IMG/VR virus record: IMGVR_UViG_3300027908_000031
Span: 1-49,164 of that record
Length of the DNA stretch: 49,164 bases
Strand: one strand, 5' to 3'
From: a virus
Shown: positions 8,040-43,184 of the stretch, in pieces
Position numbering within the stretch: position 1 is the first letter of the stretch
Layout: each line of letters begins with the position of its first letter
Notes under the pieces: model-generated
Seen by the model: only the letters and a program-made list of their open reading frames with translations
Told to the model about the DNA's origin: nothing
Databases searched by the model: none
Position numbers and translations under genes: made by a program

Positions 8040-8218
8040 ACCGTACGATCACGCGTCCAGCCACGCCGCAAGCTTTCCACCCTGGCCGCTACGTCATCCT
8101 TCCCCCCGCCGTCCGAGCGATCGTGCGAGCCCGTCCGCATTCCGACGCCCCCTCCTGGGCGTTTCGAGCGCACAACGGTGCGTCCAGGAAAGCCCTAACC
8201 TACATCTACCACCTGTAA
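8036..8218 (+). CDS. Small basic hypothetical protein
   Basis: 60 residues, Arg/Pro/Ala-rich, beginning MNRTITRPATPQAF. A good AGGAGG lies 6 nt before the ATG, and the start overlaps the preceding stop. No family recognised. Its TAA stop coincides with the first three bases of a TAAACT promoter-like element for the next gene. Confidence 0.6.
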   Translation: MNRTITRPATPQAFHPGRYVILPPAVRAIVRARPHSDAPSWAFRAHNGASRKALTYIYHL

Positions 8219-8221
8219 ACT
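8216..8221 (+). promoter_or_regulatory. TAAACT element, 6 nt before ATG 8228
   Basis: GTAAACT then GGGAGG then ATG. Spacing of 6 nt matches the genome-wide element. A classical GGGAGG lies in the spacer, too close to serve ATG 8228 but usable by ATG 8240, so two start modes are possible. It overlaps a stop codon, so chance is a real alternative. Confidence 0.4.
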
Positions 8222-8227
8222 GGGAGG

Positions 8228-8431
8228 ATGACGAAGCACATGGACACCGTAGAATTCATGCTAGAGCAATTCCTAGCGGATGAGGACGAACCGACCACGC
8301 CAGGCGAAATGGCGTGGGTCCCGTGCGAGCATCTCGAGTCCACGAAGTGCCCTACGTGTAACGTGTGCGAAGCTTGCCGTGGTACGGGACAGGTTCTGTT
8401 GCCAGTGAACGCGGAGCGGAAGGTTATCTAA
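8228..8431 (+). CDS. Small Cys-rich protein with DnaJ-like knuckle
   Basis: 67 residues: acidic N-terminal helix (MDTVEFMLEQFLADEDE), then CEHLESTKCPTCNVCEACRG with C-x2-C-x-G-x-G, likely zinc binding. ATG 8228 sits 6 nt after TAAACT. The in-frame ATG at 8240 would instead use GGGAGG with 12-nt spacing and give 63 residues. The gene ends overlapping the stop of the convergent head morphogenesis gene by 4 nt. Confidence 0.65.
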   Translation: MTKHMDTVEFMLEQFLADEDEPTTPGEMAWVPCEHLESTKCPTCNVCEACRGTGQVLLPVNAERKVI

Positions 8432-9174
8432 AGGTCCAAACCTTCTAGCTCCTCTACGATAGGCAAACCGACGCAGCGGCAAGAATAGTCTTGTCCAGGG
8501 TGATTCACGGACCCATCCTCGGCCGTGATGGGCGGATCGTTCCAATCTTGCTCGGTGCCTTCTAGGTCCTGGTGCATCGGCCTGACACGCTCGTCTTTCG
8601 ACGTGGACCAAATGTACGACGTAACTCCAGCGTTCTCTTGGCGAGTTTGGTTAATCTGCCCGTTCAACTTAAGCGTCTGGTCCCTTGCGATGAGTTCCGC
8701 TCGTCCCTCGCAATCGGGTAGGAGTTTCTGAACCTCCTCCACGCGAAGCCCGAAATTAGTGGGGTCGTTAATGACCTTGCGCACCTTCGAGGCGTACTCC
8801 CTGTGCGCGTCCTCCACGAGCTTGATGTTTTTATCGCGGGCGACGGCTATCTGTCCTGCCACGCGGGTATCGCTGGGCTTGATTCCAAACAGCTTGGGGA
8901 AGGGCTGTTTCCGCACAGTATTCGACATGCGGTCGAACATCTTACCTACCGCGCTGGGGATGTCTTCCACGATGCTCTTGTCCACGACGTCCAGGTGCGA
9001 GCCGTGCGGGGTGATGGCGTCCGTGCGGTGAGGCAGCGGTACGCTTAGGTAAGCCCTACGCCAGGCTTGGACGTACCTTTTGAGTTCTCTAACGTACCTG
9101 GCCTCGGCCGTGCGGGAGGCGCTAAGCGCGGCGGCTAGGCGGGCACGTTGGGCTCTATCGGCGAAGCGGCCCAT
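8428..9174 (-). CDS. Head morphogenesis protein (Mu F / SPP1 gp7 family)
   Basis: 248 residues. The C-terminal half has the signature of this minor capsid family: helical DQTLKLNGQINQTRQ, then VTSYIWSTSKDERVRPMHQD, then HPGQDYSCRCVGLP with the conserved Cys residues. The N-terminal half is helical. These proteins sit near the portal and assist head assembly or DNA injection. The start abuts the portal stop (1-nt overlap), the usual portal-morphogenesis order. Confidence 0.85.
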   Translation of the reverse strand: MGRFADRAQRARLAAALSASRTAEARYVRELKRYVQAWRRAYLSVPLPHRTDAITPHGSHLDVVDKSIVEDIPSAVGKMFDRMSNTVRKQPFPKLFGIKPSDTRVAGQIAVARDKNIKLVEDAHREYASKVRKVINDPTNFGLRVEEVQKLLPDCEGRAELIARDQTLKLNGQINQTRQENAGVTSYIWSTSKDERVRPMHQDLEGTEQDWNDPPITAEDGSVNHPGQDYSCRCVGLPIVEELEGLDL

Positions 9175-10832
9175 TAGGAAGTCTCCCCCTTCTTACCTCC
9201 CTGTGGCCCTGGGAGAGGTATTGTCGAATTCTCGTCTTGGCCGGATTGTTTCATGCCAGCTACCGTGATTTCAGTGGGCTCGCCGACTCCCGCATGCGTG
9301 GGACCGTGCTGCGTCTGGATGCTTCCTGGACCTTCTTCCACCTTCTTTTCCGCCACCTGGACGTTGAAGTCGTGCGAGGCTGCTAGCGACTCCTCGCGGG
9401 GCGCTACCTCGATATGTATCGAAGGATCGAACTTGCCCTTGCGGAAGTGACTAAGAGCAACCTCCTCCGGCAACAGAACGCCAGCCGTAACCATCGCCGC
9501 ATCCCGCGTACCGTACTGAAGTTCGATAGCAGCCTGCTCGGCTTCTGTCATTTGCCACAAGCTCTCGAATTCAATGGTCATCTTGTCAGGAACTACGCCG
9601 CCCGTAGGCCCGTCCTTCGCGAGACAAATAAGTCGGTACAGCTTCAGCAATTGTGGCGCCAAGTACGTTTTCTGTTCGGAGGCTACCGTGTCGTAGAAAG
9701 CGCGAAAGTCACTATCTCCGGTGGCGCCCATGCCTTGGTTTGCACGCCCGAAGAGGACGTTGACGGGAATTTGCGCCGCCATGGAGATCTGTAACATAAA
9801 CCTATCGAGAATCTCGGGCACCCCGGAGAGTGGCGTTGCCTTGCGTTCGAAGGTCTCTGACTCGTCCAAGATAAGGCTGCGCGCACTAGAGCGTTGCATA
9901 TCCACCATGGCCATGCGCGTCTGAAGGTCGCCAACGTTGTTACTGGCGATCATGTCCCACAAGCCCTTCATGGTGAAAACGCCCTGTGCGGCGTCTACCA
10001 TGAGGTTCGCAGCGGCCTGGTAACTGGTGTCGTACGCGCGCAGGACTTCGTACACGGACTGAAGCACGCTCAGGCTCCAGCCCGCCAGCTGACGCCGCTT
10101 GATGATATCCACTGGCGCGCCGTCAAAGCGGATGACGCGGCTGGCGTGGACGATGAGAACGGCTTTCTTTTCCTTCTGTCCTAGCGGACCATCCATCGTA
10201 TTCGTAATCATGTACGACGACGGCTCCCCGAAGTTAGGGGCCATGGGGTCGGCGAAGTATGTATGGGCGTACGCGAAGCGTTTGTCAACGTTGTTCAGGA
10301 AGCGGAGGCTTTTGATATTGTCCTCGTTCGCGGGTAGCGACGGATCTAGCCCATCGTCGATGCCCATGATCATGAGGTTACCACCGAAGAGCCTTCCCCA
10401 AATCCAGCCACTAAGAAAACGCTCGTTCAGGCGGATTTTCTTGGCGTAGTTCTCTGCGTCTTCTGCCACCTGCGGATCGCTGTCGCCTGCGTACCGGTCG
10501 CCTTTCTCTTTCGCGGATTTATCCGGTACGCACAGCGTGTAGCCTTTGCGAAACATCTCGTTGGGCTTGAACTCGACGATGCGACGGGCGAGGGCATTGT
10601 TGTGGAAGAGCGCGGAAAGTTCGGGCCAAGGCTGGAAGCCGGGGTCGAAGTAGTGCCCGAGTTGGACCTTATCTCGAGGCGCATATCCGGACCACTCGGA
10701 GCCGAAACCCGTCGCGGAGCCTGTGCCCAACCCTGTTGCGGGGTTTTCCCAAGCGTCCTTACGGATCAACCCCCGGGCTTGCGCAAAGGCCTTATTCTGC
10801 TGGGCGGGGGAAATCTTAGTTTTCTTGCGCAT
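9174..10832 (-). CDS. Portal protein (DUF1073 / phage portal family)
   Basis: 552 residues, the DNA entry and exit ring at the head vertex. Recognisable stretches are NNALARRIVEFKPNEMFRKG, the RSLILDESETFERKATPLSG region, and the conserved segment QIPVNVLFGRANQGMGATGD, followed by FRAFYDTVASEQKTYLAPQL. The Gly/Glu-rich C-terminal tail is likely disordered. The start is preceded on the minus strand by the TAAACT element and by no Shine-Dalgarno. The small terminase gene diverges from the same 40-bp gap. Confidence 0.88.
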   Translation of the reverse strand: MRKKTKISPAQQNKAFAQARGLIRKDAWENPATGLGTGSATGFGSEWSGYAPRDKVQLGHYFDPGFQPWPELSALFHNNALARRIVEFKPNEMFRKGYTLCVPDKSAKEKGDRYAGDSDPQVAEDAENYAKKIRLNERFLSGWIWGRLFGGNLMIMGIDDGLDPSLPANEDNIKSLRFLNNVDKRFAYAHTYFADPMAPNFGEPSSYMITNTMDGPLGQKEKKAVLIVHASRVIRFDGAPVDIIKRRQLAGWSLSVLQSVYEVLRAYDTSYQAAANLMVDAAQGVFTMKGLWDMIASNNVGDLQTRMAMVDMQRSSARSLILDESETFERKATPLSGVPEILDRFMLQISMAAQIPVNVLFGRANQGMGATGDSDFRAFYDTVASEQKTYLAPQLLKLYRLICLAKDGPTGGVVPDKMTIEFESLWQMTEAEQAAIELQYGTRDAAMVTAGVLLPEEVALSHFRKGKFDPSIHIEVAPREESLAASHDFNVQVAEKKVEEGPGSIQTQHGPTHAGVGEPTEITVAGMKQSGQDENSTIPLPGPQGGKKGETS

Positions 10833-10841
10833 ATACGCGTG

Positions 10842-10847
10842 AGTTTA
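10842..10847 (-). promoter_or_regulatory. TAAACT element for portal gene
   Basis: Minus strand GGGTAAACT, 9 nt before ATG 10832. Lies back to back with the plus-strand copy at 10861, giving an inverted repeat AGTTTA-N13-TAAACT that serves two divergent genes. Confidence 0.65.
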
Positions 10848-10860
10848 CCCCTAAAAACGA

Positions 10861-10866
10861 TAAACT
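10861..10866 (+). promoter_or_regulatory. TAAACT element for small terminase gene
   Basis: TAAACT followed by a 6-nt C-rich spacer and the GTG start at 10873. No Shine-Dalgarno exists in the gap. A -10 box here would place the transcript start on the GTG itself. Confidence 0.7.
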
Positions 10867-10872
10867 CCCCCT

Positions 10873-11409
10873 GTGCCCCCCTGGGAAAGACAAGAGAACG
10901 AAGGCGAAGCCGCATGGGCCGCTTTTTTGAGGTACCGAGATAGCGTGGGCCCCCGAAAGCTTTTTGCTATCAAGGGGATGCACGCCATGATTCAACTTCA
11001 GGAGTGGTTTAACAATCATACCTGGGAAGACCGCTGCAAGGCTTTTGACCGCTACCTGGATTCCGCCCGCGTTGCGGAACGCGTCGCCATCCTAAAGGTG
11101 GACGAAAACGAGCGCAACGCCCGCACGCTTATGGCTTGCCACGAAGCTAAACAGGTCGCTTCCCTTGAACTCGAGAAGCTTCTAGACGCCGCCAAGTCCA
11201 GCGATGCGCACGGCTTTCTAAAGCCTGCGGACATTGTAAAAATTTTCGAGTGCGCGGTGAAGTGCGAGCGTCTGGTAAAAGGCGAAGCTACGGAGATAGT
11301 GGAAACCCAGGGACCGGCTATCGACTACTCGAAACTGTCGGATCAGGACCTGGAGGCGCTTGCGGCCGCGCACTCCGTAGTGGAAGAGATGAGAAAGAAA
11401 TGTAAATGA
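10873..11409 (+). CDS. Terminase small subunit-like protein
   Basis: 178 residues. Opens with PPWERQENEGEAAWAAFLRY, the N-terminal signature of a phage small-terminase family (PWERQ-GES-A--AF--YRD), followed by a helix-turn-helix-like stretch (FAIKGMHAMIQLQEWFNN, then WEDRCKAFDRYLD) and a helical oligomerisation region. It would bind packaging sites for the 5082 large terminase. The GTG start is set by the TAAACT element 6 nt upstream and by the conserved N-terminus. It overlaps the next gene as ATGTAAATGA. Confidence 0.75.
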   Translation: MPPWERQENEGEAAWAAFLRYRDSVGPRKLFAIKGMHAMIQLQEWFNNHTWEDRCKAFDRYLDSARVAERVAILKVDENERNARTLMACHEAKQVASLELEKLLDAAKSSDAHGFLKPADIVKIFECAVKCERLVKGEATEIVETQGPAIDYSKLSDQDLEALAAAHSVVEEMRKKCK

Positions 11410-11606
11410 ATTCGGATCGAAGCGGGAACCGTAGCAAATCCGTATGGTTATGCTGTGCGTGCAACCGCCGCGCAAAAACTTTGCTTGACATGAAAAAAGC
11501 CTGTCGTAGCATGTCCGTATGGGTGGAGGAGTCCTCCATCATCCTAAAGGACGGTAAGCCCATTGAAGCCCGAGCTAGCGACGAAATCCCCATCCTCCCC
11601 CTGTGA
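11406..11606 (+). CDS. Small hypothetical protein with Cys pair
   Basis: 66 residues. The ATG overlaps the preceding stop. A CCACNRRAK motif may be half of a zinc site. The rest (WVEESSIILKDGKPIEARAS) looks like a small beta structure. No family recognised. The last 44 nt overlap the RuvC-like gene. Confidence 0.5.
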   Translation: MNSDRSGNRSKSVWLCCACNRRAKTLLDMKKACRSMSVWVEESSIILKDGKPIEARASDEIPILPL

Positions 11607-12021
11607 GTATCTTCTAGCGATAGATCCTGGCATTTGCACGGGTTGGGCTTGGTTCTGGCAAAAGAATCTGATAGCAGCTGGGGTGGGTGAGCCGTGCACC
11701 TTATCGTCGCAATACGACTGCATTTGCGAGTGTCCGCAAGTCTATCCTAGATCTCCCGTCCCGCCGAACGACTTAATTACTCTAGCCGTACTAGTAGGTA
11801 CGTTCGTGGAGCGCTACGCTGCCAAGATGGTCTTCCCCGCGACGTGGAAGGGTCAACTAAAGAAGCACGTCTGCCATGCTAGGATTGATTTAGCCTTGAC
11901 ACCCGGGGAGAGGAAAATTATTCCCAAGCTCGCAAAAACATACTTACACAACATGCTGGACGCGGTGGGCATTGGGCTGTGGTACCTAGGAAGGTTGCCG
12001 AAGTCGGGAGTGTTGAAATGA
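11563..12021 (+). CDS. RuvC-like Holliday junction / crossover junction nuclease
   Basis: 152 residues. RNase H-fold signature: first Asp strand YLLAIDPGICTGWAW (D-P-G-x-x-T-G), a middle segment PPNDLITLAVLVG, then WKGQLKKHV, and the C-terminal HNMLDAVGIGLWYL giving the last catalytic Asp. Phage members resolve branched DNA before packaging, which fits its place next to the small terminase. The only in-frame start is TTG 11563, with AAAGGA 11 nt upstream, so the start is uncertain. Confidence 0.75.
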   Translation: MKPELATKSPSSPCEYLLAIDPGICTGWAWFWQKNLIAAGVGEPCTLSSQYDCICECPQVYPRSPVPPNDLITLAVLVGTFVERYAAKMVFPATWKGQLKKHVCHARIDLALTPGERKIIPKLAKTYLHNMLDAVGIGLWYLGRLPKSGVLK

Positions 12022-12230
12022 GTTTCTGGCTAACTGATGTCATCACACGCTGTTATAGGTGCGGCATACGTAACGAGCGCAGAATCGAACGTCAACGGGC
12101 AGGAGGTGCGTACCCTTGCGGCGTGTGCAAAGCCTATATTTACTTTCCGCACGTGCCCGAGCGGCTTATAGCTCAAATAGATTCCGATCTAAACGTTCGC
12201 CAGTGGTGGAGGAAAGGGGGGCGGAAATGA
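12018..12230 (+). CDS. Small zinc-ribbon protein
   Basis: 70 residues. Two Cys pairs (CYRCG and CGVCK) about 25 residues apart form a likely zinc ribbon; the C-terminus is helical and basic. ATG 12018 overlaps the RuvC stop (ATGA), which decides the start over an upstream frame opening at 11979. Function unknown. Confidence 0.65.
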   Translation: MSFWLTDVITRCYRCGIRNERRIERQRAGGAYPCGVCKAYIYFPHVPERLIAQIDSDLNVRQWWRKGGRK

Positions 12231-12409
12231 AAGGAAGACTCAAAAAGACGCAGACCCTTGAACAACTATTTCCCAACGTAGCCGCCCGTCGCGCCGCGGA
12301 TGCGTCCATTGACCGGCTGGACGTTACTAAGAGCATGAACGAATACTTGGACACATGGGAATGTGCGTACTTTACCGTCGCACAGAGCTCCCCCTTTCGA
12401 GAAGGCTAG
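12227..12409 (+). CDS. Small hypothetical protein
   Basis: 60 residues beginning MKGRLKKTQTLEQLFPNV, basic N-terminus then a helical middle. ATGA overlap with the previous gene and a 4-nt convergent overlap with the baseplate gene at 12406. No family recognised. Confidence 0.55.
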   Translation: MKGRLKKTQTLEQLFPNVAARRAADASIDRLDVTKSMNEYLDTWECAYFTVAQSSPFREG

Positions 12410-13017
12410 ACTAGCGCCGCGCCCGCAACCATAAACCCACCCACGGTCGCATCGTATCGGCTACCCCACGTGCCCTCGCCGGTCACTCCACCGTACCGGC
12501 TAACGAACTTGAAATCGTTCCCCGGGGGCCACGTAGTGTAGTGCAGCATCCCATACGTGCCCGCCGCTTTGGTGTCCGTAAGCAGCTCTTGCGCGCTGGA
12601 CGGGCTTAGGAGCTCCTTTATCTCTACCAGGAAGCTCGCTGGCCATTGCTCTACGTAGTCCACGCTCGTGGCTGCTAGCCCCACGGGGAGTAGATTCGCG
12701 ACGGCTATGACGTCCTCGTCCCGCCCTTGGGAGCGGTTCACCCGGATGCGAAGGAGAATGGCCACGTAGTAGTCGGAGTCGCTTCGCCCGTTCCTAGGCT
12801 CACCTACGATAGCCCCGAGCTTGTCCTCCTGGTCGCCCGTTACCGTTGGCGTTAGCTGGCGAAGATTGATAATGTCCCAAAAGGTGTCTTCGAGAGTTTG
12901 CACGCTTTGCGTGAAGGACGTAATCATCCCACGCAGAACCTCGGCGTTCTTGAACTGTTCAATAAGGAACGCCAGCGCCTCAGCAACGTGGTTGTTATCT
13001 ACAGTAGGAACAGGCAC
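12406..13017 (-). CDS. Baseplate-associated tail protein (DUF2612-like)
   Basis: 203 residues. The N-terminal two thirds match the DUF2612 pattern: a helical start, LEDTFWDIINLRQLTPTVTG, then DKLGAIVGEPRNGRSDSDYY and RIRVNRSQGRDEDVI, usually found directly after baseplate J proteins. The C-terminus is Gly-rich, as in proteins that contact tail fibres. It starts directly after the baseplate J stop. Probably a tail-tip or fibre-connecting baseplate component. Confidence 0.8.
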   Translation of the reverse strand: MPVPTVDNNHVAEALAFLIEQFKNAEVLRGMITSFTQSVQTLEDTFWDIINLRQLTPTVTGDQEDKLGAIVGEPRNGRSDSDYYVAILLRIRVNRSQGRDEDVIAVANLLPVGLAATSVDYVEQWPASFLVEIKELLSPSSAQELLTDTKAAGTYGMLHYTTWPPGNDFKFVSRYGGVTGEGTWGSRYDATVGGFMVAGAALV

Positions 13018-14241
13018 TTAGATACCGTTCACGAGTATGCGGGACGTATCAAGAAGATATACGGTAAACGGACTACCAGAAATATTCGCTGTATTCACGG
13101 GGGGATAAACTGTGTCCACTTCACATGTCGGGACATCAATCGTAATCCCGGGAACGATAGCCGATGCGCGCACGCCCAGGATTACGACCTCCGCCCCTGG
13201 CACGAGGTCCTGCTGACCATACGCCACGATAGCGGCCTTCACGGCATTCGCTTGATCCGTTGTGAGGCTATTAGGTGTCGTCGTAACGTCGACATACAAG
13301 TCGACCACGGTAACTCGTGTGAACGAGACGGTATGGCTATTCCCCGAGGCATCCGTTGCCGTTCCAGTAAGGGTTCCGTAGGCTTGAATACCCGAGGGCT
13401 TGTCATCCCAAATAGTCTGGGCTATGCTATTGTTCGGCACTGCAGGGCTTACACCGTCCCAAATCAGCGCCTGAAAGGACTTGGCGGGTTGGTTATTGCC
13501 GTCCGTGAACATTGTGGTGTTCTCTGGAACGGAGCAGGAAATCATTCCCGCCAATTGGTCTAGGGCTGCTTGGATAGCATCGACCGTGCAGGCGCCGGGG
13601 GCTGCAAGTTCGGCTTCGCGCTTCTGTCGGAGTTCGGTGGACGAGCCCGTAAGGTTCGGGTCGTCGCCAAGCGAACCTAGCACCGCATCGAGCGGATTCG
13701 TAACCGCCGACCATCCCGATACGGGCGCTGTGATAACCGTCAACGTCCCAGAGTTGGCGACGATGGGTCCGGTTTGGGTACTCTGGAACACGCCTTGGTA
13801 AGTGCCGGCGGAGGTACTTACGACGGGGCCTGGAACAGGGTTGCCGTCGACATCAGGGGGACCTACGAGCGTCCAAGTGTTCGTGGGCTGCCCCGCGACA
13901 TTGGCCACGCTCCCGGCCGGGATGGACGAGGACGAGGCCAGGGTCATATTGCAAGTAACCTGACTCGGCGTAGGCGGGTCGGGAATGGTGCCAGTTAGGC
14001 TGGCAAGGGCTACGAGTAGCTGTCCTTCTGAGGCGTCGGGGTCGAAACCGTTGTATGCGGTCGCCCCGAGCTCCCACAAGCTGGCGAGTTCATTGGCAAT
14101 GATTCCGATGAGTTGCCCGATAGGTTGGTCGGGCGATGTGTCCAAACCCGGGTCGACATTCGCCAGTAGGGCCGTCGTGATATTCGCGACGATCTGTTGC
14201 TGTGTTAGGGCGACGAAACCAGTAGGGGATACACCGCTCAC
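13018..14241 (-). CDS. Baseplate J-like protein (wedge component)
   Basis: 407 residues. Typical baseplate J/gp47 features: N-terminal PDQPIGQLIGIIANELASLW, the DASEGQLLVALASLTGTIP segment, a beta-rich domain with SSSIPAGSVANV, the conserved GSSTELRQKREAELAAPGAC (TDAELR-R-like) and a C-terminal tail-lysozyme-like region. The open frame extends to 14400, but the GTG at 14241 overlaps the previous stop as GTGA and begins the conserved part, so it is chosen. Assembles the baseplate wedge. Confidence 0.85.
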   Translation of the reverse strand: MSGVSPTGFVALTQQQIVANITTALLANVDPGLDTSPDQPIGQLIGIIANELASLWELGATAYNGFDPDASEGQLLVALASLTGTIPDPPTPSQVTCNMTLASSSSIPAGSVANVAGQPTNTWTLVGPPDVDGNPVPGPVVSTSAGTYQGVFQSTQTGPIVANSGTLTVITAPVSGWSAVTNPLDAVLGSLGDDPNLTGSSTELRQKREAELAAPGACTVDAIQAALDQLAGMISCSVPENTTMFTDGNNQPAKSFQALIWDGVSPAVPNNSIAQTIWDDKPSGIQAYGTLTGTATDASGNSHTVSFTRVTVVDLYVDVTTTPNSLTTDQANAVKAAIVAYGQQDLVPGAEVVILGVRASAIVPGITIDVPTCEVDTVYPPVNTANISGSPFTVYLLDTSRILVNGI

Positions 14242-14645: not shown

Positions 14646-14880
14646 CTTTTCGGGAGTTTACCCGCAAAACTAGCCAGGTTCCGACGAAGGCCCCCGCGGC
14701 GGAGAACGGGATTAGCCAAGGATTCTCAAGGTATAGGTATACCGAAACTCCCGAACAGGCGACTAGAGCCGCACTACACGTGGATGCCTTCCAGGCGGCA
14801 CCCTCCGCAACCCATTTGACGTTCAACGTCCAAAGGACGTCCACGAGAATGGCGAGCCAATAGACTAGGAGGTATGTCAC
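14599..14880 (-). CDS. Small multi-span membrane protein
   Basis: 93 residues with about three hydrophobic segments (LLVYWLAILVDVLWTL, ACSGVSVYLYL, PFSAAGAFVGTWLVL) and a charged C-terminus. GTG start overlaps the spike gene stop (GTGA). The last 47 nt overlap the next gene. It sits between spike and wedge genes, an unusual place for a membrane protein; a role in injection or lysis is conceivable but unsupported. Confidence 0.6.
   Translation of the reverse strand: MTYLLVYWLAILVDVLWTLNVKWVAEGAAWKASTCSAALVACSGVSVYLYLENPWLIPFSAAGAFVGTWLVLRVNSRKDDDLSANDVGRFRHL
14655..14660 (-). promoter_or_regulatory. TAAACT element for baseplate wedge gene
   Basis: Minus strand GCGGGTAAACTC, 9 nt before ATG 14645. 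It lies within the coding end of the 14880 gene, so it would start a sub-operon of baseplate genes. Confidence 0.6.
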
Positions 14881-15539
14881 TCTGCCTTGGCGACGGTAGC
14901 GGCCACGTTGCCAACCGTGGTGTAGGGTGTTCCGTAGGTCACGGGACCACCGCCCGAGGGCGCCGCCGCACTGGCCAGGGCGTTCTTTATCTTGGTGAGT
15001 TCCCCTGACACCAGGTTGGCCAATGCGACGAAACCCGTAGGCGAAGCCCCTAGGTCAATCTCCCCCCCAGCACTGGGGATGCGAATCTGCGCGGACTTCC
15101 CTGCGATGCCTATCACTAGGTCAGAGGAGATGGGGTCGCCCACGGGCGTCACCGTATTGCAAGGCATCGCCACGCAGTACATACCATGAACGGTCGCATC
15201 CGTGGGCGAGGAGAGTTGCCCCGTTTGGCGCCATTCCGCGTCCGAATACATACGGAATACGACCGTCACTTCGTCCCCCGAGTTCAGGGGGAAGGCCATA
15301 ACGAACCCGCCCCCGCGCGGGTACGCGATGGGTACCTGTGGAAGTACGGGCAGGGTCTCGTACGCCTTTAGCCCCGTCGTTCCCTCGATGTAGGGGCGAC
15401 GTATGGCCAGCTGGATGTCTGCCGTTTGCGTGCTGGGGTAGAAGGTCTGCACCGTGCCAGGGAGGCTAGTGTGGACTTGCTCCCGCATCTCATCCATTGC
15501 CAGGCGGATGATTTCGGTTAAAGTTCTATCAAGAGACAT
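14877..15539 (-). CDS. Baseplate central spike protein (gp138 N-terminal OB-fold type)
   Basis: 220 residues. LPGTVQTFYPSTQTADIQLA opens an OB-fold like that of gp138/gpV puncturing proteins, with GDEVTVVFRMYSDAEW and the conserved GQLSSPTDATVHGM (Ser-Pro-x-D-x-x-x-H-G) characteristic of this family. The C-terminus is a short helical or beta tip. ATG 15539 (MSLDRTLTE) has AGAGG 7 nt upstream and overlaps the HNH stop; a TTG two codons earlier is less likely. It pierces the outer membrane at the tail tip. Confidence 0.8.
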   Translation of the reverse strand: MSLDRTLTEIIRLAMDEMREQVHTSLPGTVQTFYPSTQTADIQLAIRRPYIEGTTGLKAYETLPVLPQVPIAYPRGGGFVMAFPLNSGDEVTVVFRMYSDAEWRQTGQLSSPTDATVHGMYCVAMPCNTVTPVGDPISSDLVIGIAGKSAQIRIPSAGGEIDLGASPTGFVALANLVSGELTKIKNALASAAAPSGGGPVTYGTPYTTVGNVAATVAKAE

Positions 15540-16059
15540 TTGCAAGCCTCTTCTTTAGTCCTGCTACTATAGATTCCAACTGGGCTAGCGTTGCGTCCTG
15601 TTTGAGTTGATTCGCCTTCCAGGAGATTATCCAAACGTTTCCCCTTACATATCCTTTGGATGAATCTATGCGGTCGATGGATGCAGTGCCGTCCGTGAAC
15701 GTTCTAGGACCTAGCCAAGGCTTATTTTTGCCTCTTCCGAAGTTGGCCCCGCAGGGGAGTACTGGAATGCCCAGTAAAGGGCACACATCCGGCCACGGCA
15801 AGTCGTCCGCCGTTATGTTGAACTCCATTCCGTTTCGTCTACAGCGAGCTCTTGCTTTGTTTACCAGGTATTTTACTGGATGGGCTTTCCTCCATTTGAT
15901 TGTAGATATTCTTTTCTCTTCCGAGTGCGTTCGATTGTATTCTCGCCCTTTAGCAGTCTGGCACGGTATGCAAACACGCACATGTCCGTCCCTGTGCCTT
16001 TTGTGCTTGTAGTAGCTTTCCAAGGGCTTCACTACGCGGCACACGTTACAAGGTCTCAT
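15529..16059 (-). CDS. HNH-type endonuclease (homing-like)
   Basis: 176 residues. N-terminal Cys-pair zinc site (CNVCRVVKPLESYYKH, then VCIPC), then CPLLGIPV and the conserved TDGTASIDRIDSSKGYVRGN leading into VWIISWKANQLKQDA, the typical C-terminal signature of phage HNH homing endonucleases. It interrupts the baseplate cluster between hub and spike, as mobile endonucleases do. It has its own TAAACT element 6 nt before ATG and is bracketed by an 11-bp inverted repeat, so it seems to have inserted with its own control. Confidence 0.85.
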   Translation of the reverse strand: MRPCNVCRVVKPLESYYKHKRHRDGHVRVCIPCQTAKGREYNRTHSEEKRISTIKWRKAHPVKYLVNKARARCRRNGMEFNITADDLPWPDVCPLLGIPVLPCGANFGRGKNKPWLGPRTFTDGTASIDRIDSSKGYVRGNVWIISWKANQLKQDATLAQLESIVAGLKKRLANVS

Positions 16060-16093
16060 ACCAATAGTTTATAGCTAGATAGATTGGTATGAG
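16055..16093. repeat. 11-bp perfect inverted repeat around HNH start
   Basis: Arms CTCATACCAAT (16055-16065) and ATTGGTATGAG (16083-16093), 17-nt loop. The left arm covers the HNH start codon. On the plus strand the right arm is followed by TTTTT, so it also resembles a weak terminator in that direction. Confidence 0.75.
16066..16071 (-). promoter_or_regulatory. TAAACT element for HNH endonuclease
   Basis: Minus strand CTATAAACT, exactly 6 nt before ATG 16059. It lies in the 17-nt loop between inverted repeat arms 16055-16065 and 16083-16093, so a protein bound to the palindrome, or the hairpin itself, could block it. Confidence 0.65.
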
Positions 16094-20270: not shown

Positions 20271-20276
20271 AGTTTA
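20271..20276 (-). promoter_or_regulatory. TAAACT element for tail chaperone gene
   Basis: Minus strand CTCGTAAACT, 6 nt before ATG 20264. The intervening TCCGGT has no ribosome-site character, so a leaderless start is suggested. Confidence 0.65.
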
Positions 20277-23524: not shown

Positions 23525-23530
23525 AGTTTA
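23525..23530 (-). promoter_or_regulatory. TAAACT element for tail sheath gene
   Basis: Minus strand GCGGTAAACTC, 8 nt before ATG 23516, with no Shine-Dalgarno in between. Confidence 0.65.
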
Positions 23531-24464: not shown

Positions 24465-24691
24465 ACCTCTACTTGTTGGAACGCACTGGAATTATAGCGC
24501 GTTATGAATACGTGGGTCACGTTGTTCGAACTGAAAGTGAATCCCAAGCCAGGCGCTTGGTCTCCCACCTACATGTAAACGAAAGTCCAAAAGACTGGTT
24601 AGACCCTAAGCGTAGCCGATGCCACTGTATTGGTTATACCAATGCAATTGAAGCGGGTGTTATTTTGTCGTCCTTCAAAGAAACAGGATAA
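24461..24691 (+). CDS. Small hypothetical protein
   Basis: 76 residues starting MNLYLLERTGIIARYEYVGH, alpha/beta, with a CHC motif late. This opening resembles small phage or plasmid proteins of the type MNLYLLTQ that carry data-poor annotations. ATGA overlap with the lipoprotein gene. Confidence 0.6.
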   Translation: MNLYLLERTGIIARYEYVGHVVRTESESQARRLVSHLHVNESPKDWLDPKRSRCHCIGYTNAIEAGVILSSFKETG

Positions 24692-24694
24692 ACT
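24689..24694 (+). promoter_or_regulatory. TAAACT element for second lipoprotein gene
   Basis: GGATAAACT, exactly 6 nt before GTG 24701, overlapping the previous stop codon. A plus-strand copy with the same geometry as the minus-strand late genes. Confidence 0.65.
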
Positions 24695-27722: not shown

Positions 27723-27728
27723 AGTTTA
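27723..27728 (-). promoter_or_regulatory. TAAACT element for lysis run
   Basis: Minus strand GCAGGTAAACTC, exactly 6 nt before ATG 27716. Heads the membrane protein, lipoproteins, peptidase and endolysin series. Confidence 0.7.
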
Positions 27729-29399: not shown

Positions 29400-29526
29400 C
29401 TAGAAGTTTACCGCGTATAAGATGCCTCTGGCGCTTTTACGGCTGTTACACCGCTTACAGCAAGGCACGGTGTTTTCAATAGTGTTTGGACCTCCCAAAC
29501 TCGTGGCAAACGGTACACTTTTTCAT
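29400..29526 (-). pseudogene. Decayed HNH endonuclease fragment
   Basis: The 126-bp gap between two virion genes holds, on the minus strand, ATG 29526 with MKKCTVCHEFGRSKHY then stop, while the neighbouring frame reads LGGPNTIENTVPCCKRCNSR then KSARG, a typical HNH C-terminal half (NTIENTVPCCKRCN). The two parts in different frames look like one small HNH gene broken by frameshift or deletion. ATGA overlap with the upstream stop suggests it was once translated. Confidence 0.5.
29405..29410 (-). promoter_or_regulatory. TAAACT element for spike-base gene
   Basis: Minus strand GCGGTAAACT, 25 nt before ATG 29379. A start about 7 nt downstream would fall just before the ribosome site AGAGAGGA. 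This copy argues that the element is a promoter and not a translation signal, because here it is uncoupled from the start codon. Confidence 0.65.
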
Positions 29527-31362: not shown

Positions 31363-31368
31363 AGTTTA
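31363..31368 (-). promoter_or_regulatory. TAAACT element before 31350 gene
   Basis: Minus strand CTGTAAACTT, 12 nt before ATG, with GGAGGAG directly after it. If transcription began about 7 nt downstream, part of the ribosome site would be lost. Confidence 0.55.
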
Positions 31369-32517: not shown

Positions 32518-32523
32518 AGTTTA
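32518..32523 (-). promoter_or_regulatory. TAAACT element for lipoprotein protease
   Basis: Minus strand CTAGTAAACTC, exactly 6 nt before ATG 32511, in the 12-bp gap after the spike gene stop. Confidence 0.7.
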
Positions 32524-35204: not shown

Positions 35205-35210
35205 AGTTTA
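35205..35210 (-). promoter_or_regulatory. TAAACT element for tail spike gene
   Basis: Minus strand ACGGGTAAACTC, exactly 6 nt before ATG 35198; the spacer CGCCAC has no ribosome-site character. Confidence 0.7.
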
Positions 35211-36591: not shown

Positions 36592-36597
36592 AGTTTA
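36592..36597 (-). promoter_or_regulatory. TAAACT element after capsid terminator
   Basis: Minus strand CATGTAAACT, 9 nt before ATG 36582, immediately downstream of the terminator hairpin. Arrangement terminator then promoter separates capsid transcription from the genes below. Confidence 0.65.
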
Positions 36598-36601
36598 CAT
36601 G

Positions 36602-36637: not shown

Positions 36638-36690
36638 ACTTGTTTCCTTTCGGAGCAACCCGCTATAAGTGTTGCTCCATCGAGCGGGGG

Positions 36691-37743: not shown

Positions 37744-37745
37744 GA

Positions 37746-38324
37746 TTAAGCCGAGCTTCCCGGCAAATTAATTTCCAAAAGCGCGATATTCCCACTGGTC
37801 GTGCGTGCGGGGGGTTTGAGGCGCATCCCACCGGGGACGGGAAGGATTTCCGAACCTCCCGTATCGGACGCTGTGTTCGCCGTGAACTTGCCGTTGTTAG
37901 TTCCCGTCGATGCTGTCGAGGACGAGTAGATGTTCAGCCCAACGTTAGTGCCAACGGGCTGAGCCGTGGTCGAGGACCACTCCACGAAGACCTTGCCACG
38001 CTTCATGACCGGGACCATTTCGCCGATCTGGTATTGCTGGGGTGTTCCCGTGTAGGAGAACCCCGCATCCGCGGGCGCTCGGGCCGTCTTCAGCACTGCA
38101 ACGCCCAAAACCTTGTTAGGCGGCGTCGTCGTGCTTGAGGACGTTTGCGAAACCTGGTTACAGCTCTTGCCGTCCGCCGACAACTGAACCGCGCGACCCG
38201 GGTTCACAACAGCCGAAGCAACGAAGCTCTCGATGCTGTAGTCTTCCAAGTCACCAATTTGACCTGGACTCGCCTCTGCAGGCGAAAGGTTATACGTTGT
38301 CTGACCTTCCGAAGGAAAACTCAT
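37746..38324 (-). CDS. Structural cement / decoration protein
   Basis: 192 residues. EGQTTYNLSPAEASPGQIGD, then VNPGRAVQLSADGKSCNQVS and KVLGVAVLKTARAPADAGFS, GEMVPVMKRGKVFVEWS follow the phage cement-protein pattern (DUF2190/gp24-like) that stabilises the capsid. ATG 38324 overlaps the scaffold stop (ATGA) with AAGAAGG upstream, preferred over TTG 38330. Confidence 0.78.
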   Translation of the reverse strand: MSFPSEGQTTYNLSPAEASPGQIGDLEDYSIESFVASAVVNPGRAVQLSADGKSCNQVSQTSSSTTTPPNKVLGVAVLKTARAPADAGFSYTGTPQQYQIGEMVPVMKRGKVFVEWSSTTAQPVGTNVGLNIYSSSTASTGTNNGKFTANTASDTGGSEILPVPGGMRLKPPARTTSGNIALLEINLPGSSA

Positions 38325-38785
38325 TTCCAAGCCTTCTTGTTACGTTCAAGCATTCGAATCTGCGCATCTTCACAATCGTTTCGCTCTTCCGTCGGGACGG
38401 CAGCTGCCGCACCCGGCTGCACCGTTGCCAAGCCAGCGGCGGGCATTGCAAGCGCCAATTCAAAGGCAGCCTTGATACCGTCGTCACTAAGCCCGTCCGC
38501 GCGGAAGGTCGAGGCCTTCGCCTGGATGGTTGCAACCATCACTTCGCGGTCCGTGCCTTTGACGGCCTTGCCCGTCGCCTGCATCGCCTTCTCGCGAATG
38601 TCCAGGCTCGCAGCCACGGCCGCGTCCAGACGCTTCGGATCCGCTTGCGCGGTCAGCGTGGCGACCTGGGCCTTGAGGGCCTCGTTCTCGCCTTTAGTTT
38701 TCTCGTGCGCCGCTTTGAGGTCAGCCACTTCCTTGGCGTCTTGACGCAAGGTCGTGATTTCCTTCTGAAGAGATTCCAAGTCCAT
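38321..38785 (-). CDS. Nested scaffold protein from internal start
   Basis: 154 residues in the same frame as the protease fusion, beginning MDLESLQKEITTLRQDAKEV at the exact junction between protease domain and coiled-coil scaffold. A perfect GGTAAACTC lies 7 nt before this ATG. Nested scaffolds within protease genes are known in other phages (lambda C/Nu3). Here the internal product appears to have its own promoter. Confidence 0.65.
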   Translation of the reverse strand: MDLESLQKEITTLRQDAKEVADLKAAHEKTKGENEALKAQVATLTAQADPKRLDAAVAASLDIREKAMQATGKAVKGTDREVMVATIQAKASTFRADGLSDDGIKAAFELALAMPAAGLATVQPGAAAAVPTEERNDCEDAQIRMLERNKKAWK

Positions 38786-39400
38786 TACGCTGAGTTTACC
38801 GTTAGGCGTACGGGAGCCGGCATCGGTGTAGACATCGGGGATAAGTTGGTATGTCGTCCCGTCCAACCGAAGCCCGACATCTCGCCCCGCACGGCCGAAT
38901 CCGGCGCAGCCTAAAGCCGCGTGGTTATACCGGGGGTTCAATTGCTTGTGGGTGTACTCCTCCCCGTCGAAATTCCCTTTTTCTTCTTTGAGGTCGACCT
39001 CGTAGCCAAGGCTGATCTCCCTCAGGGCTCCGGTTTCAATCTTCGCGATGGTCGCGGCATCGTTGATCACCAGCGTCGCAGCGATCTTGTCCCCATCGCG
39101 CCGTACGTCGCTGCCAACGTGTCCCACAGCCAACGTGCGGTGGTTTTGGGTGTTGACGACAGCTTGGTGCCCTTCGGTGACAGGGATGTCTGCAATCGTC
39201 TTCAGCGACGCATCCTCGAAGACCACCTCGGGGGTGCGGAGTTCCTTCCGCGTCGACCCGTCGGAGTTCTGGTAGGTGAAGACACCCGTGCGGCTCAGGT
39301 AGGCGGGGATGCGCAAAGCACCACTGCCAGTGCGCTCAAACTTGTCTAGCTTGCTGAAATCCCAGCGGAAAGATAGCGCGCCGCTTGCTTCTGTTGCCAC
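38321..39400 (-). CDS. Prohead protease-scaffold fusion (DUF2213-like)
   Basis: 359 residues. N-terminal half (ALRIPAYLSRTGVFTYQNSD, TPEVVFEDASLKTIADIPVT, EGHQAVVNTQNHRTLAVGHV, ALREISLGYEVDL) is the DUF2213 protease-like domain with candidate His/Ser in EGHQ and REISLGY. From residue about 206 it becomes a helical coiled-coil scaffold (DLESLQKEITTLRQDAKEVA onward). GTG start is set by TAAACT exactly 6 nt upstream. An internal start makes the scaffold alone. Confidence 0.82.
   Translation of the reverse strand: MATEASGALSFRWDFSKLDKFERTGSGALRIPAYLSRTGVFTYQNSDGSTRKELRTPEVVFEDASLKTIADIPVTEGHQAVVNTQNHRTLAVGHVGSDVRRDGDKIAATLVINDAATIAKIETGALREISLGYEVDLKEEKGNFDGEEYTHKQLNPRYNHAALGCAGFGRAGRDVGLRLDGTTYQLIPDVYTDAGSRTPNGKLSVMDLESLQKEITTLRQDAKEVADLKAAHEKTKGENEALKAQVATLTAQADPKRLDAAVAASLDIREKAMQATGKAVKGTDREVMVATIQAKASTFRADGLSDDGIKAAFELALAMPAAGLATVQPGAAAAVPTEERNDCEDAQIRMLERNKKAWK
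38793..38798 (-). promoter_or_regulatory. Internal TAAACT element for nested scaffold
   Basis: Minus strand AACGGTAAACTC inside the protease-scaffold gene, 7 nt before in-frame ATG 38785. Coding constraint does not demand this 9-mer, and the position matches the domain boundary. Confidence 0.65.
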
Positions 39401-39406
39401 GGGGGG

Positions 39407-39412
39407 AGTTTA
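39407..39412 (-). promoter_or_regulatory. TAAACT element for protease-scaffold gene
   Basis: Minus strand CTCGTAAACTC, followed by CCCCC and GTG 39400; the box ends exactly 6 nt before GTG. Same C-rich spacer and GTG start as the small terminase gene, and no ribosome site. Confidence 0.7.
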
Positions 39413-39636
39413 CGAGCGTGTCTGAGTGTCCGTGCCTGACCCCAAAAACTTAGTATTACCTAGATGGGGGGTTGCGCTTCTATGAACTGTAGTGCTATAT
39501 ATAGAAGACGCTAACTTTCTTATTTTTTTCAGTCACAGTCACTAATAATAATATATACTTAGGTGTGACTAAGACACTTTGAATACAATAGCCTACACGA
39601 AAAATATATGTAAAACAATTACATGTAAGGTGATAT
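39413..39636. other. AT-rich intergenic region with palindromes
   Basis: 224 nt between the divergent capsid operon and the CoiA-like gene, visibly richer in A/T than its surroundings. Holds palindrome CTATATATAG (39495-39504), inverted repeat AGTCACA / TGTGACT (39531-39537, 39564-39570) enclosing a -10-like TATACT (39554-39559), and TTACATGTAA just before the gene. Looks like a regulatory or origin-type region. No ORF of note seen. Confidence 0.5.
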
Positions 39637-40353
39637 ATGCAATTCGCGAACGATTTAAAAGGGGAAAGAATTCAAGCCACGAGTGGCACTTACGCACACT
39701 GTCCCACATGCAAAGGGCCCGTTTTGTCAAAATGTGGTAGTATAAATGTACACCATTGGGCACACCAAAGTAGACTGGAATGTGACCCTTGGTCAGAGCC
39801 TGAGAGCCCATGGCACCGAAGCTGGAAGGACGCCGTTCCGGAGGATTGGCGGGAGGTATCCATGGGACCGCACCGCGCCGACATACGCACGCCAGGGGGG
39901 CTGGTCGTAGAGATACAGCACTCTGGTATCTCTTCGGAAGATGTTGCAGCTAGGGAGGCGTTCTACGGCAACATGGTGTGGCTATTGGACGGTCGGAATT
40001 TCGTGCTAAAGCAAAGAAGATTTGGCCCGATATGTGGGCAATTCGCTATAGCCCGTGCGCTCACCAACGGACGCGCAAGCCAGGATGTTCTTAACAAGCT
40101 GTACGAAGACCAAAAGAATCTATTGATAGTGGAAGACCCACACTGGTCTTTTGGCACGAACCGCCGCACGTTCCAGGTAAGTACGAAGCCTATTGCTTTC
40201 GACTTGGGGGACTTTTTGGTGGTGTGTGACGGTCTTCGTCTGTGGACCAAGGGCCGTAGTCCCCGTCTGTATCTTCAAGACCCTACGAAGGTGACGACGG
40301 AGGCTTTCACCTCATGGCTTATGACGGCTGGCGTATCTTCTCCGCCAACGTGA
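39637..40353 (+). CDS. CoiA-like competence/nuclease family protein
   Basis: 238 residues. Zinc-ribbon-like start (AHCPTCKGPVLSKCG), then VHHWAHQSRLECDPWSEPES PWHRSWK, and the nuclease core EVSMGPHRADIRTPGGLVVE with IQHSGISSEDVAAREAFYGN MVWLLDG, matching CoiA proteins (PD-(D/E)XK-like; His/Asp and E-x-Q motif). Ribosome site AAGGTG before ATG. It stands alone on the plus strand after an AT-rich gap and converges on the primase (35-nt overlap), which suggests later acquisition. Confidence 0.78.
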   Translation: MQFANDLKGERIQATSGTYAHCPTCKGPVLSKCGSINVHHWAHQSRLECDPWSEPESPWHRSWKDAVPEDWREVSMGPHRADIRTPGGLVVEIQHSGISSEDVAAREAFYGNMVWLLDGRNFVLKQRRFGPICGQFAIARALTNGRASQDVLNKLYEDQKNLLIVEDPHWSFGTNRRTFQVSTKPIAFDLGDFLVVCDGLRLWTKGRSPRLYLQDPTKVTTEAFTSWLMTAGVSSPPT

Positions 40354-42571
40354 GTCCTGTGCCCTGAACCGAGTACTTGTCTGGTACAATCCAAGGTTTC
40401 CTGGCGCTTGTTCGTTTCCCCCTAACGCACCCAAGTTTTTCAAGAAGCACGGTAACTCTAAGCACGTCCACTCTGGTAGTCCTGTAGGTATCTGGCTGAA
40501 TAGACCTAACAATTTCGCTGGGTGTAACGTCCTTCTTGCCTAGAAGGTACTTCTCTACCTTGTCGGTCCAAGGGTCATCAAGAGCCGTGTCACTTTCTTC
40601 GCGGTAGGCATCTACGGCTTCCGTGACAGCAGCTGGTTCTTGCAGTCCGCTCTCGACCCAAAGGCGACACCCCTCAAGCGCCCAATTCAGGATGCCGCTG
40701 AGTTCAGCCTGCAACTTCTCCTTGAGTGCCTTGTCCTGTTTTTCTTTGGGAATGCTGACCTTACAGGGGATGAGCTTGATGCGCGTCCATATGGCAGTGT
40801 CCGTGCCTTGAACTACGGGCTTATCGTTCGCGCACACCCAGAACTTGTGCGTTGGGGCAAAGTCCCAGAAATTCTCGCGCATGAAACGAGCCGTTATGAT
40901 GTCACCCCCCGTTAGCTGCTTAACGGTTTTTTCCGCCCAAGTCTTGCCCTTCTCTGCTTCTTGACATACCGCCAACCTAGCGCCAAAGAGTTTGGCCATG
41001 CCGGCGGGGTGTTCCTCCTCCGAGACCAAGAGCTTAGATGGAGCAGTCGTAGCGAACTCCCCTAAAAGGGACATGAGCAGGTCAGCGAATACGCTTTTGC
41101 CGTTGTCGCCGCTTCCCCAAAGGAAGAACAGGCACTTTTCCCGAACGGAGCCAGTAAGGGAGTACCCAACGCTTCGCTGGATATAGTTTAGCATTTCAGG
41201 GTCGCCGCTGAACATGGTGTCCAGGAAAGACGTCCACACGGGACACTGCGCCTCAGGGTCGTAGACCGCCTCTGTGGACTGCGTAAATAGGTTCGTCTTG
41301 TCGTGGTCGTGTGGTTTTCCCGTTCGCAGGTCAATAGTAACTTCAGGGGTGCTGAGTAACCAAGGATTCGTGTTGAAATCTATGGGTTTAGCGGATACGT
41401 ACTTGCGAAACAATCTACTCATTTCCGTGCGATGCTTGCCGCTTTGGCTGGTATTTGCCCATTTCAGAATAGCGAGTTTTTTGGCGCTGGCTTCTATTTC
41501 CTGCTCCTCTTCTTTGCTTAGGTCTTGCTTATGCGCCTTTGCTCTCAGGGCTTCGGCTAGCCGATCCTTGTCAATCTTAATCTCATCCGCTTCTTTGGCG
41601 ATGTCGTAGACCACCTGTTCAGTAAGCCCTACGACCAGACAGTCCGGAGTCTTCTCCCACTTAGTGCCGTTCCAGCAGAGCCACTCTTTCCAATCTGGTA
41701 CGTATTTGACATCTTCGCCGTGCGCCCGTTGGAACCTTCGAGCGTTGCCCGTGTCCGTTAGGTCAAAGCGAACCTCCTCAGATTCTTTTGGGAGCGCACG
41801 CGCCTTCTGAGTAAAAGAATCCCACCATGCGGGCGCGCAACCCCTGGGGAGGTCGCTGCGTTCGGCGCCCGCTAGCTTGTGGAATAGTTCGTCCTCGCTC
41901 CACGGGGGAAGGCATCGTGCGTTATAGTTCGCCATAAAGGCGTCGCACACGCTGTCGGGCAATTCGTACGTGCACACCAGCTTACAAGCAACGTTCCACA
42001 GCGCTAGAGACCCACCCTGTCCTTCAATGGCAGCGGGGGCGCTTGCGACGTAGTCGGACGCTAACTTTAGCCGGTACGAGAGTTCAGCCTCGCCCAGTGG
42101 GGGGCGTGTGCTCGGCGCCCTTTCGACCCGCTCATCCGAACGAAGAATCGCCGCAAGCCACCCTGGCAAAGGTGCGACGGGGAGGTCTTGTATGACCGTA
42201 TACCCGTTCCCATCGCCCGGCGCTACGACGAACCCGCCCTCGCCCCGGATGTCAACACCGTCGCCAAGTTTGCTGGCACTGTTGCGTATGTCGGCATCTC
42301 CGTGGACAAAATAGAGATGGAAGCCACCGGATTTGGTTTTGACCGTAAACGTCTCAGGTACGACCTGCCCAGTAGCCAGTTTTTCAAACGAGCCGAGTCC
42401 ATCGTGCCCATTCTTTATGTCTAAGTCCACGACAACAATACCGGAACGATGTCCAGTAAGGATGCCTACGTTGTCGTCCCATCCGTACGGTACCGTGTCC
42501 TCCCCTATACCTACTTCCTTGTATGTCCTAGCAGGAATCTTGCCACGAAGCGGGATGCGTGCATAATTCAA
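40319..42571 (-). CDS. Primase-polymerase / SF3 helicase replication protein (D5-like)
   Basis: About 750 residues. N-terminal primase-polymerase domain: VGILTGHRSGIVVVDLDIKN (catalytic D-x-D), TVKTKSGGFHLYF (S-x-H) and DIRGEGGFVVAPG. Then a linker and D5-type domain, and a superfamily 3 helicase with Walker A FLWGSGDNGKSVFADL, Walker B-like RLAVCQEAEKG and sensor KFWVCANDKPVV. Primes and unwinds DNA at the origin. TTG 42571 has GCAGGAGA 8 nt upstream; a GTG at 42589 is the alternative. TAGACT lies upstream. Confidence 0.88.
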   Translation of the reverse strand: MNYARIPLRGKIPARTYKEVGIGEDTVPYGWDDNVGILTGHRSGIVVVDLDIKNGHDGLGSFEKLATGQVVPETFTVKTKSGGFHLYFVHGDADIRNSASKLGDGVDIRGEGGFVVAPGDGNGYTVIQDLPVAPLPGWLAAILRSDERVERAPSTRPPLGEAELSYRLKLASDYVASAPAAIEGQGGSLALWNVACKLVCTYELPDSVCDAFMANYNARCLPPWSEDELFHKLAGAERSDLPRGCAPAWWDSFTQKARALPKESEEVRFDLTDTGNARRFQRAHGEDVKYVPDWKEWLCWNGTKWEKTPDCLVVGLTEQVVYDIAKEADEIKIDKDRLAEALRAKAHKQDLSKEEEQEIEASAKKLAILKWANTSQSGKHRTEMSRLFRKYVSAKPIDFNTNPWLLSTPEVTIDLRTGKPHDHDKTNLFTQSTEAVYDPEAQCPVWTSFLDTMFSGDPEMLNYIQRSVGYSLTGSVREKCLFFLWGSGDNGKSVFADLLMSLLGEFATTAPSKLLVSEEEHPAGMAKLFGARLAVCQEAEKGKTWAEKTVKQLTGGDIITARFMRENFWDFAPTHKFWVCANDKPVVQGTDTAIWTRIKLIPCKVSIPKEKQDKALKEKLQAELSGILNWALEGCRLWVESGLQEPAAVTEAVDAYREESDTALDDPWTDKVEKYLLGKKDVTPSEIVRSIQPDTYRTTRVDVLRVTVLLEKLGCVRGKRTSARKPWIVPDKYSVQGTGLTLAEKIRQPS

Positions 42572-42591
42572 GGTAGTAGTCTCCTGCACCT

Positions 42592-42597
42592 AGTCTA
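42592..42597 (-). promoter_or_regulatory. TAGACT variant element for primase gene
   Basis: Minus strand CTTGTAGACT. About 7 nt downstream begins AGGAGA, followed by TTG 42571, so the predicted transcript would carry just the ribosome site. Diverges from the copy at 42651. Confidence 0.5.
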
Positions 42598-42650
42598 CAA
42601 GAATTCTGGCTTTCATTCCGGGCACCGAGTCGATTTATGGGTTTTGTCTG

Positions 42651-42656
42651 TAGACT
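42651..42656 (+). promoter_or_regulatory. TAGACT variant element for endonuclease VII gene
   Basis: CTGTAGACT, exactly 6 nt before ATG 42663; spacer GTTGGC has no ribosome-site character. Same geometry as the TAAACT series with one substitution. Confidence 0.6.
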
Positions 42657-42662
42657 GTTGGC

Positions 42663-43184
42663 ATGCGTTCGGAGAGAAAGTGCACCGTCGAGGGTTGCGG
42701 GAGGAGGCACCACGCCAAGGGCTGGTGTCAGAAGCACCACTACCATATGGTGCCAGGTCAGAAAGAGAAACAAGCAATACGCGGACAGGGCTACTACCGG
42801 CGTCCTGGTGTGAAACAGAGGCTACAAGCCAGAGGACGCACGCTAGAGCACAAGGCAAAGTGCAGGGAACGAACGACTCTTTTTTCTGCCGAACTGGTAG
42901 AGAGGTGTAGGTCGTTTCAGAGGGGTCGTTGTGATATCTGTCAAGTTGTTTTGCTTTTAGGGGGTAAAAAACCGGATTCTGAATGCGCAGACCATTGCCA
43001 TAGGCATAGAGTGCCTAGAGGTTTGTTGTGTATGTGTTGCAACGTTGCCCTTGGCATATACGAAAACCACCAAAGACGTAGAGGGGTTACTATCAAGGCT
43101 TACGAGTTCTATCTCACATACCCGCCTGTGCGGAGGATGAACAATCTTCCAGCTTTTGCACATTTTTTGAAAGCCTCGGCGTGA
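42663..43184 (+). CDS. Recombination endonuclease VII-like protein
   Basis: 173 residues. N-terminal zinc motif CTVEGCGRRHHAKGWCQKHH typical of phage HNH-associated fingers, then CDICQVV and the catalytic DHCHRHRVPRGLLCMCCNVA with LGIYENH. Endonuclease VII resolves branched DNA or acts as a homing nuclease. Starts the plus-strand replication run. Overlaps the next gene by 4 nt. Confidence 0.85.
   Translation: MRSERKCTVEGCGRRHHAKGWCQKHHYHMVPGQKEKQAIRGQGYYRRPGVKQRLQARGRTLEHKAKCRERTTLFSAELVERCRSFQRGRCDICQVVLLLGGKKPDSECADHCHRHRVPRGLLCMCCNVALGIYENHQRRRGVTIKAYEFYLTYPPVRRMNNLPAFAHFLKASA

Follow-up and report, generated by a model that had tools for sequence, protein, structure and literature searches.

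A recurrent TAAACT box close to the start codons of virion genes in a contractile-tailed phage, and its probable role as a leaderless late promoter element

The IMG/VR virus record IMGVR_UViG_3300027908_000031, a stretch of 49,164 bases to whose full length (the window) all coordinates given here refer, encodes the gene set of a contractile-tailed phage, with sheath, baseplate, tape measure, portal, terminase, DNA polymerase, primase and a sigma-70 family protein. A seven-base box, GTAAACT, recurs a few nucleotides before the start codons of its virion genes, most often with exactly 6 nt between box and start, and its position and target genes, though not its exact sequence, are kept in the closest relative found. 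The best explanation of these observations as a whole, to which a probability of about 0.65 is assigned, is that the box is the -10 element of late phage promoters giving leaderless mRNAs, and that a sigma factor encoded by the phage is its most likely reader.

Enrichment, spacing and targets of the box

The analysis was based on 76 curated starts, predicted by gene calls made within this work; almost always they are the first start of the open frame, and therefore were not picked to suit the motif. Among all 4096 hexamers, TAAACT ranked first in the 60 nt upstream of these starts, with 15 genes where 0.85 would be expected (p = 7e-15), and 15 of its 20 genomic copies fall in such regions. The heptamer GTAAACT occurs 13 times in the window, compared to 3.8 +/- 1.9 times in shuffled sequences, none of 100 shuffles reaching 13; twelve copies precede gene starts and the thirteenth (38793-38799) precedes a nested in-frame ATG of the head protease gene, discussed below. 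The combination of TAAACT with a distance of 6 nt was seen nine times, the runner-up, an unrelated pair of hexamer and offset, twice. When a TAGACT copy is included, ten boxes lie at 6 nt, and 6967 rotations of the gene map gave at most two at any single distance. These figures bear out the recurrence of the element before starts, which had been claimed in the original prediction made from the sequence alone, and come from the motif discovery and spacing permutation proposed there. The hexamer hardly varies over 16 boxes of the window, 15 being TAAACT and one TAGACT, and the base before it is G in 13.

The exact 6-nt spacing was found on the plus strand before ATG 8228 of a small Cys-rich protein (box 8216..8221), GTG 10873 of the terminase small subunit (10861..10866) and GTG 24701 of a lipoprotein-like protein (24689..24694), and on the minus strand before ATG 16059 of an HNH/endonuclease VII-type gene (16066..16071), ATG 20264 of the tail assembly chaperone, with the tape measure gene downstream (20271..20276), ATG 27716 of a hydrophobic protein of 62 amino acids (27723..27728), ATG 32511 of a trypsin-like protease (32518..32523), ATG 35198 of a putative tail fibre or spike (35205..35210) and GTG 39400 of the head maturation protease, with the major head protein downstream (39407..39412). 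The TAGACT box (42651..42656, plus strand) stands likewise 6 nt before ATG 42663 of endonuclease VII. The eight genes originally named with this spacing, as well as 42663, are all in this set, together with 8228, which was absent from the first list.

The remaining gene starts, all on the minus strand, lie farther from their boxes: 8 nt for ATG 23516 of the tail sheath (23525..23530); 9 nt for ATG 10832 of the portal (10842..10847, divergent from the terminase box), ATG 14645 (14655..14660) of a small protein whose gene lies upstream of that for the baseplate wedge, a position suggesting a gp25-like protein, and ATG 36582 (36592..36597, directly downstream of the inverted repeat AAAGGCCCG and a T run); 12 nt for ATG 31350 (31363..31368), with GGAGG between box and start; and 25 nt for ATG 29379 (29405..29410), a leadered case with an AGAGGA stretch in between. 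The spacing of about 6 nt, stated earlier for the element in general, is corrected by these values at six starts and is exact at the remainder, 38785 excepted.

The TAAACT boxes are confined to 8.2-39.4 kb, and the replication arm, which occupies 39.6-49.2 and 0-8.2 kb, is without them, so that the term phage-wide is too broad. TAGACT is not enriched as a general variant, TARACT occurring 39 times overall against 30 expected, and the copy at 42651 is the only one with the 6-nt spacing; as a variant of the box it is weak.

A -10 element with leaderless starts

A distance of 6 nt from the last T of an ordinary -10 element to a start codon places the start codon at +1, and RNA polymerase usually prefers a pyrimidine at -1 and a purine at +1. 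A pyrimidine precedes the start codon in 9 of the 10 genes with the 6-nt spacing compared to 26 of 59 unboxed genes (p = 0.008), and in the closest relative, G008, in 15 of 16 boxed genes compared to 31 of 65 (p = 0.0006). This is what a start codon at +1 would lead one to expect. Leaderless TANNNT genes have the end of the box 6-7 nt before the start, and ten genes of the window have it at exactly 6 nt. The mean anti-Shine-Dalgarno pairing was -2.3 kcal/mol for boxed genes, practically that of random positions (-2.4 kcal/mol), and -4.8 kcal/mol for unboxed genes, in agreement with the earlier statement that most boxed genes lack a Shine-Dalgarno sequence. Purine-rich sequence resembling a ribosome site lies between box and start where these are 12 and 25 nt apart. 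A gap of less than 10 nt to the upstream gene was found for 18% of boxed and 76% of unboxed genes, the boxed genes mostly leading transcription units.

A -35 element was searched for both as TTGACA at 15-19 nt from the -10 and as any shared hexamer; the TTGACA matches (2.81) did not rise above those of random sites (2.73) and no hexamer was common, as had been noted before. Canonical -35/-10 sigma-70 promoters were rejected on this ground. Promoters of the SigB/SigF type (GTTT...GGGTA), considered on account of GTTTA upstream of a few boxes and judged by eye, were also set aside, most boxes being without GTTT. Many boxes are preceded, at a distance of 6-9 nt, by sequence rich in T, with TTTT at 6 of the 16 boxes and at 3.5% of random sites; it could represent terminator tails or a promoter spacer element; the search for intrinsic terminators between 8 and 45 kb gave no excess over shuffles.

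The endonuclease gene (15529-16059) provides a different type of evidence. A perfect 11-bp inverted repeat (CTCATACCAAT / ATTGGTATGAG; 16055..16093, minus strand) spans its start codon, and its arms enclose the box, which thus comes to lie in the loop. The hairpin has a folding energy of -12.6 kcal/mol (z = -4), and such inverted repeats cover 0.13% of random positions. In RNA folding, the probability that the 16059 start codon is unpaired was 0.00 in a read-through RNA and 0.82 in a leaderless RNA. The hairpin would therefore block the start in a longer RNA and spare the leaderless one, which is independent support for the box being a promoter. In phage T4, hairpins with an internal late promoter are known at I-TevI, segB, soc and e (PMC2988022). 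The two cases have in common that the start region is sequestered in longer transcripts and that the late promoter is sited to exclude the hairpin (PMC2988022); they differ in that the late RNA of the window would be leaderless and its stem covers the start codon itself.

Position 38785 had been taken for a separate gene start. It is really an in-frame ATG, codon 206 of the head protease gene (38321-39400), 7 nt after a TAAACT box on the minus strand (38793..38798). Among 560 internal in-frame ATG/GTG codons it is the only one with TARACT at 5-7 nt, and it marks the passage from the conserved DUF2213 protease domain (residues 23-176) to a coiled-coil-like tail. In the protease gene of G008 (12769-13770) the hexamer TACAAT, preceded by C, stands 6 nt upstream of an ATG at codon 190, which in the alignment is the same junction. 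This suggests a scaffold of 154 amino acids that would be made from its own promoter within the protease gene. In phage lambda, the scaffold Nu3 is made by an in-frame start inside the protease gene C and comprises its C-terminal part. The predicted scaffold is likewise nested in frame at the 3' part of a protease gene, whereas its start has a promoter box of its own.

The following course of events is proposed. GTAAACT would be the -10 element of the late promoters, that is, those of the virion genes, and RNA polymerase would melt TAAACT and initiate 6-7 nt downstream, either on the first base (A or G) of the start codon or 2-3 nt ahead of that codon, with no requirement for a -35 element. 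Boxed mRNAs would thus be leaderless, or almost so, with leaders of 2-3 nt from the boxes at 8-9 nt, and be translated without a Shine-Dalgarno sequence. The phage sigma factor (2691-3449), a product of the unboxed replication arm, would be loaded onto the host polymerase and read the box. The same box would drive the nested scaffold in the protease gene and bypass the start-codon hairpin at the endonuclease gene. The boxes presumably act as promoters, and the leaderless 5' end is very likely; late timing of the boxed genes is likely. Of the leaderless promoter system as first put forward, the -10 box is favoured by several concordant sequence tests and by conserved position and targets in a relative, and the phage-wide scope has to be given up.

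Conservation in relatives and the reader of the box

The search of a phage collection with the window found no near relative. The best relatives were IMG/VR contigs, of which G008 is the closest (30-50% protein identity, 33 reciprocal best hits with the window), and nine phages in total, including these two, were compared; which boxes are counted in the relatives hinges on start predictions. TANNNT stands 5 or 6 nt before 16 of the 81 genes of G008, against about 0.1 expected per position. The box of this phage is CTANNCT, with C before the hexamer in 16 of 16, C at the fifth position in 14, and invariant T, A and last T, which fits the core of a -10 element. That of the window differs by its preceding G and its near-fixed AAC middle.

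Eight boxed genes of the window have an ortholog in G008, and seven of these are boxed there, compared to 4 of 25 unboxed genes (p = 5e-4). The seven are those of the portal, the 14645 protein, the tail assembly chaperone, the sheath, the trypsin-like protease, the tail fibre (a partial ortholog) and the head protease. The comparison with related phages that had been proposed at the outset thus gave, for G008, a box with conserved position and target genes and a changed sequence. Many of the shared boxed genes differ in order and orientation between the two phages; therefore, the promoters appear to travel with the same genes or to be re-made at them. No such matching of boxed orthologs was found with G001, G004 or G005. 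G001 (L019-L021) has GTAGGGT-like boxes 6-7 nt before seven genes, which are mostly not orthologs of the boxed genes of the window, although the portal ortholog is boxed there as well. When 90 related loci were scanned for TANNNT at 5-7 nt, the signal was clear only in the G008 pieces and one G001 piece.

The protein encoded at 2691..3449 on the plus strand matches Sigma70_r2 with 47.1 bits (cut-off 24), which establishes that the phage encodes a sigma factor. Among the nine phages, a region-2 sigma match was found in the window and in G008 only; these two share the boxed regulon, and the sigma gene is unboxed in each. A search for closer relatives of the sigma factor returned only the G008 ortholog and a weak match of 64 residues, and a fold search with its structure model gave sigma-S and sigma-A chains with low TM-scores. 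A region-4 sigma match in G001 proved on look-up to be a small-terminase-like helix-turn-helix protein and was discarded. RpoS reads the -10 element with conserved tryptophans; the residues aligned to them are H-W in the sigma of the window and Y-R in that of G008, which would be consistent with an altered recognition. The original prediction was right as to the sigma factor itself; its recognition of the box, argued from the association in two genomes, is somewhat probable. A wider proposal, in which a phage with its own sigma has a -35-independent leaderless late regulon whose sigma and box co-evolve (GTAAACT compared to CTANNCT) while the targets stay constant, including a separately promoted nested scaffold, is given even chances.

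Several observations weigh against a leaderless late box read by the phage sigma. Six boxes lie at 8-25 nt instead of 6 nt from the start. The association of sigma and box comprises two genomes only, and some TANNNT boxes at 6-7 nt also occur in G001 and G004, which gave no sigma match. Region 4 of the window sigma was not matched by Pfam, while it was matched in the G008 ortholog, and the structure model is poor (pLDDT 57), with regions 2-3 moderate and the C-terminal half poor. The host search, a genome scan with the sheath alignment, gave only distant prophage-like matches in Firmicutes (25-31% identity).

The same leaderless -10 box could instead be read by the housekeeping sigma of the host, the phage following the habit of a leaderless-rich host, and this alternative is possible but on balance doubtful. 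In Actinobacteria and Deinococcus-Thermus, TANNNT some 12 bp ahead of the start is the known leaderless signal (PMC3160421, PMC12340547), and those bacterial genes resemble the boxed ones in the -10-like box at this distance, the lack of a Shine-Dalgarno sequence and the dispensable -35. The boxes of G001 and G004 occur without a region-2 sigma match and, in the case of the seven in G001, imply that a host sigma can suffice. However, the leaderless boxes of high-GC hosts have an uninformative middle (PMC3160421) and form variable, genome-wide sets, whereas the window has a near-fixed heptamer at virion genes, with a candidate dedicated sigma, and the base before the hexamer is strongly biased both here and in G008. 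A host sigma should also serve the replication arm, which is free of TAAACT boxes, and the boxed regulon agrees only with that of the relative that has a sigma factor too.

A translation-initiation or other mRNA-level signal is an improbable reading. The box occupies the position of a ribosome-binding site and, like the start-associated sequences of Cluster K mycobacteriophages, which lie 3-7 bp before starts, it is a phage motif repeated a few bases before many of them (PMC3203893). Those sequences are 13 bp long, contain AGGAG and pair with 16S rRNA (PMC3203893), whereas the anti-Shine-Dalgarno pairing of the boxed genes does not exceed the level of random DNA, and the bases conserved across relatives are those of a -10 element and not of a 16S complement. 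Moreover, the hairpin that contains one of the boxes in its loop would keep any longer RNA from being translated, and boxes are found mostly at the first genes of runs. Chance, or a recently duplicated repeat without a role in expression, can be dismissed as extremely unlikely, since, short as a seven-base string is, none of 100 shuffles and none of 6967 rotations approached the observed values, the flanks of the copies are mutually unrelated and the targets are common to the window and G008.

Related phage promoters and minor features of the window

Phage promoters based on a -10 element only are known from the middle and late genes of Thermus phage P23-45, which belong to the extended -10 class and are read by host sigma-A, the phage protein gp39 weakening the use of the -35 (PMC7403470). 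In the first 50 kb of P23-45, taken as a control, TANNNT was found exactly 6 nt before three starts against 0.75 expected. The hexamers there are TATTAT and TATTCT and the reader is sigma-A of the host, whereas the phage of the window encodes its own sigma. The predicted promoters PL1, PR2 and PL2 of Cluster O mycobacteriophages have +1 on the first base of the start codon (PMC4351075), as would those described here; they are three SigA-like promoters, compared to a regulon of about 17 boxes in the window. Within the openly searchable literature, a near-fixed box on most virion-gene units, combined with a candidate dedicated sigma and with a regulon conserved despite sequence change, looks new. 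If the proposal is true, the phage couples a dedicated sigma to leaderless late mRNAs and its transcription control also sets the mode of translation. It would further offer a natural pair of sigma and promoter that has diverged in two phages and may help to find the sigma residues reading the -10 box, as well as a way to test uncultured phages for leaderless late regulons from sequence only, and this may narrow the range of their hosts.

Some minor features were recorded along the window. The small Cys-rich proteins encoded at 7878-8039 and 8228-8431 seem by eye to be paralogs, the second having its own box. In the region 44493-45384, short repeats encode PAGR/VPAGR-like units in one frame, and two long overlapping frames are in competition, the coding model favouring 44521-45384. 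Both ends of the contig (1-110 and 48600-49164) lie inside hexanucleotide repeats of the GGTCGT/GGTCGC type and therefore the genome is probably circular or permuted, with the break point of the contig within a single repeat array. At its 5' extremity the DNA polymerase frame consists of this hexanucleotide repeat.

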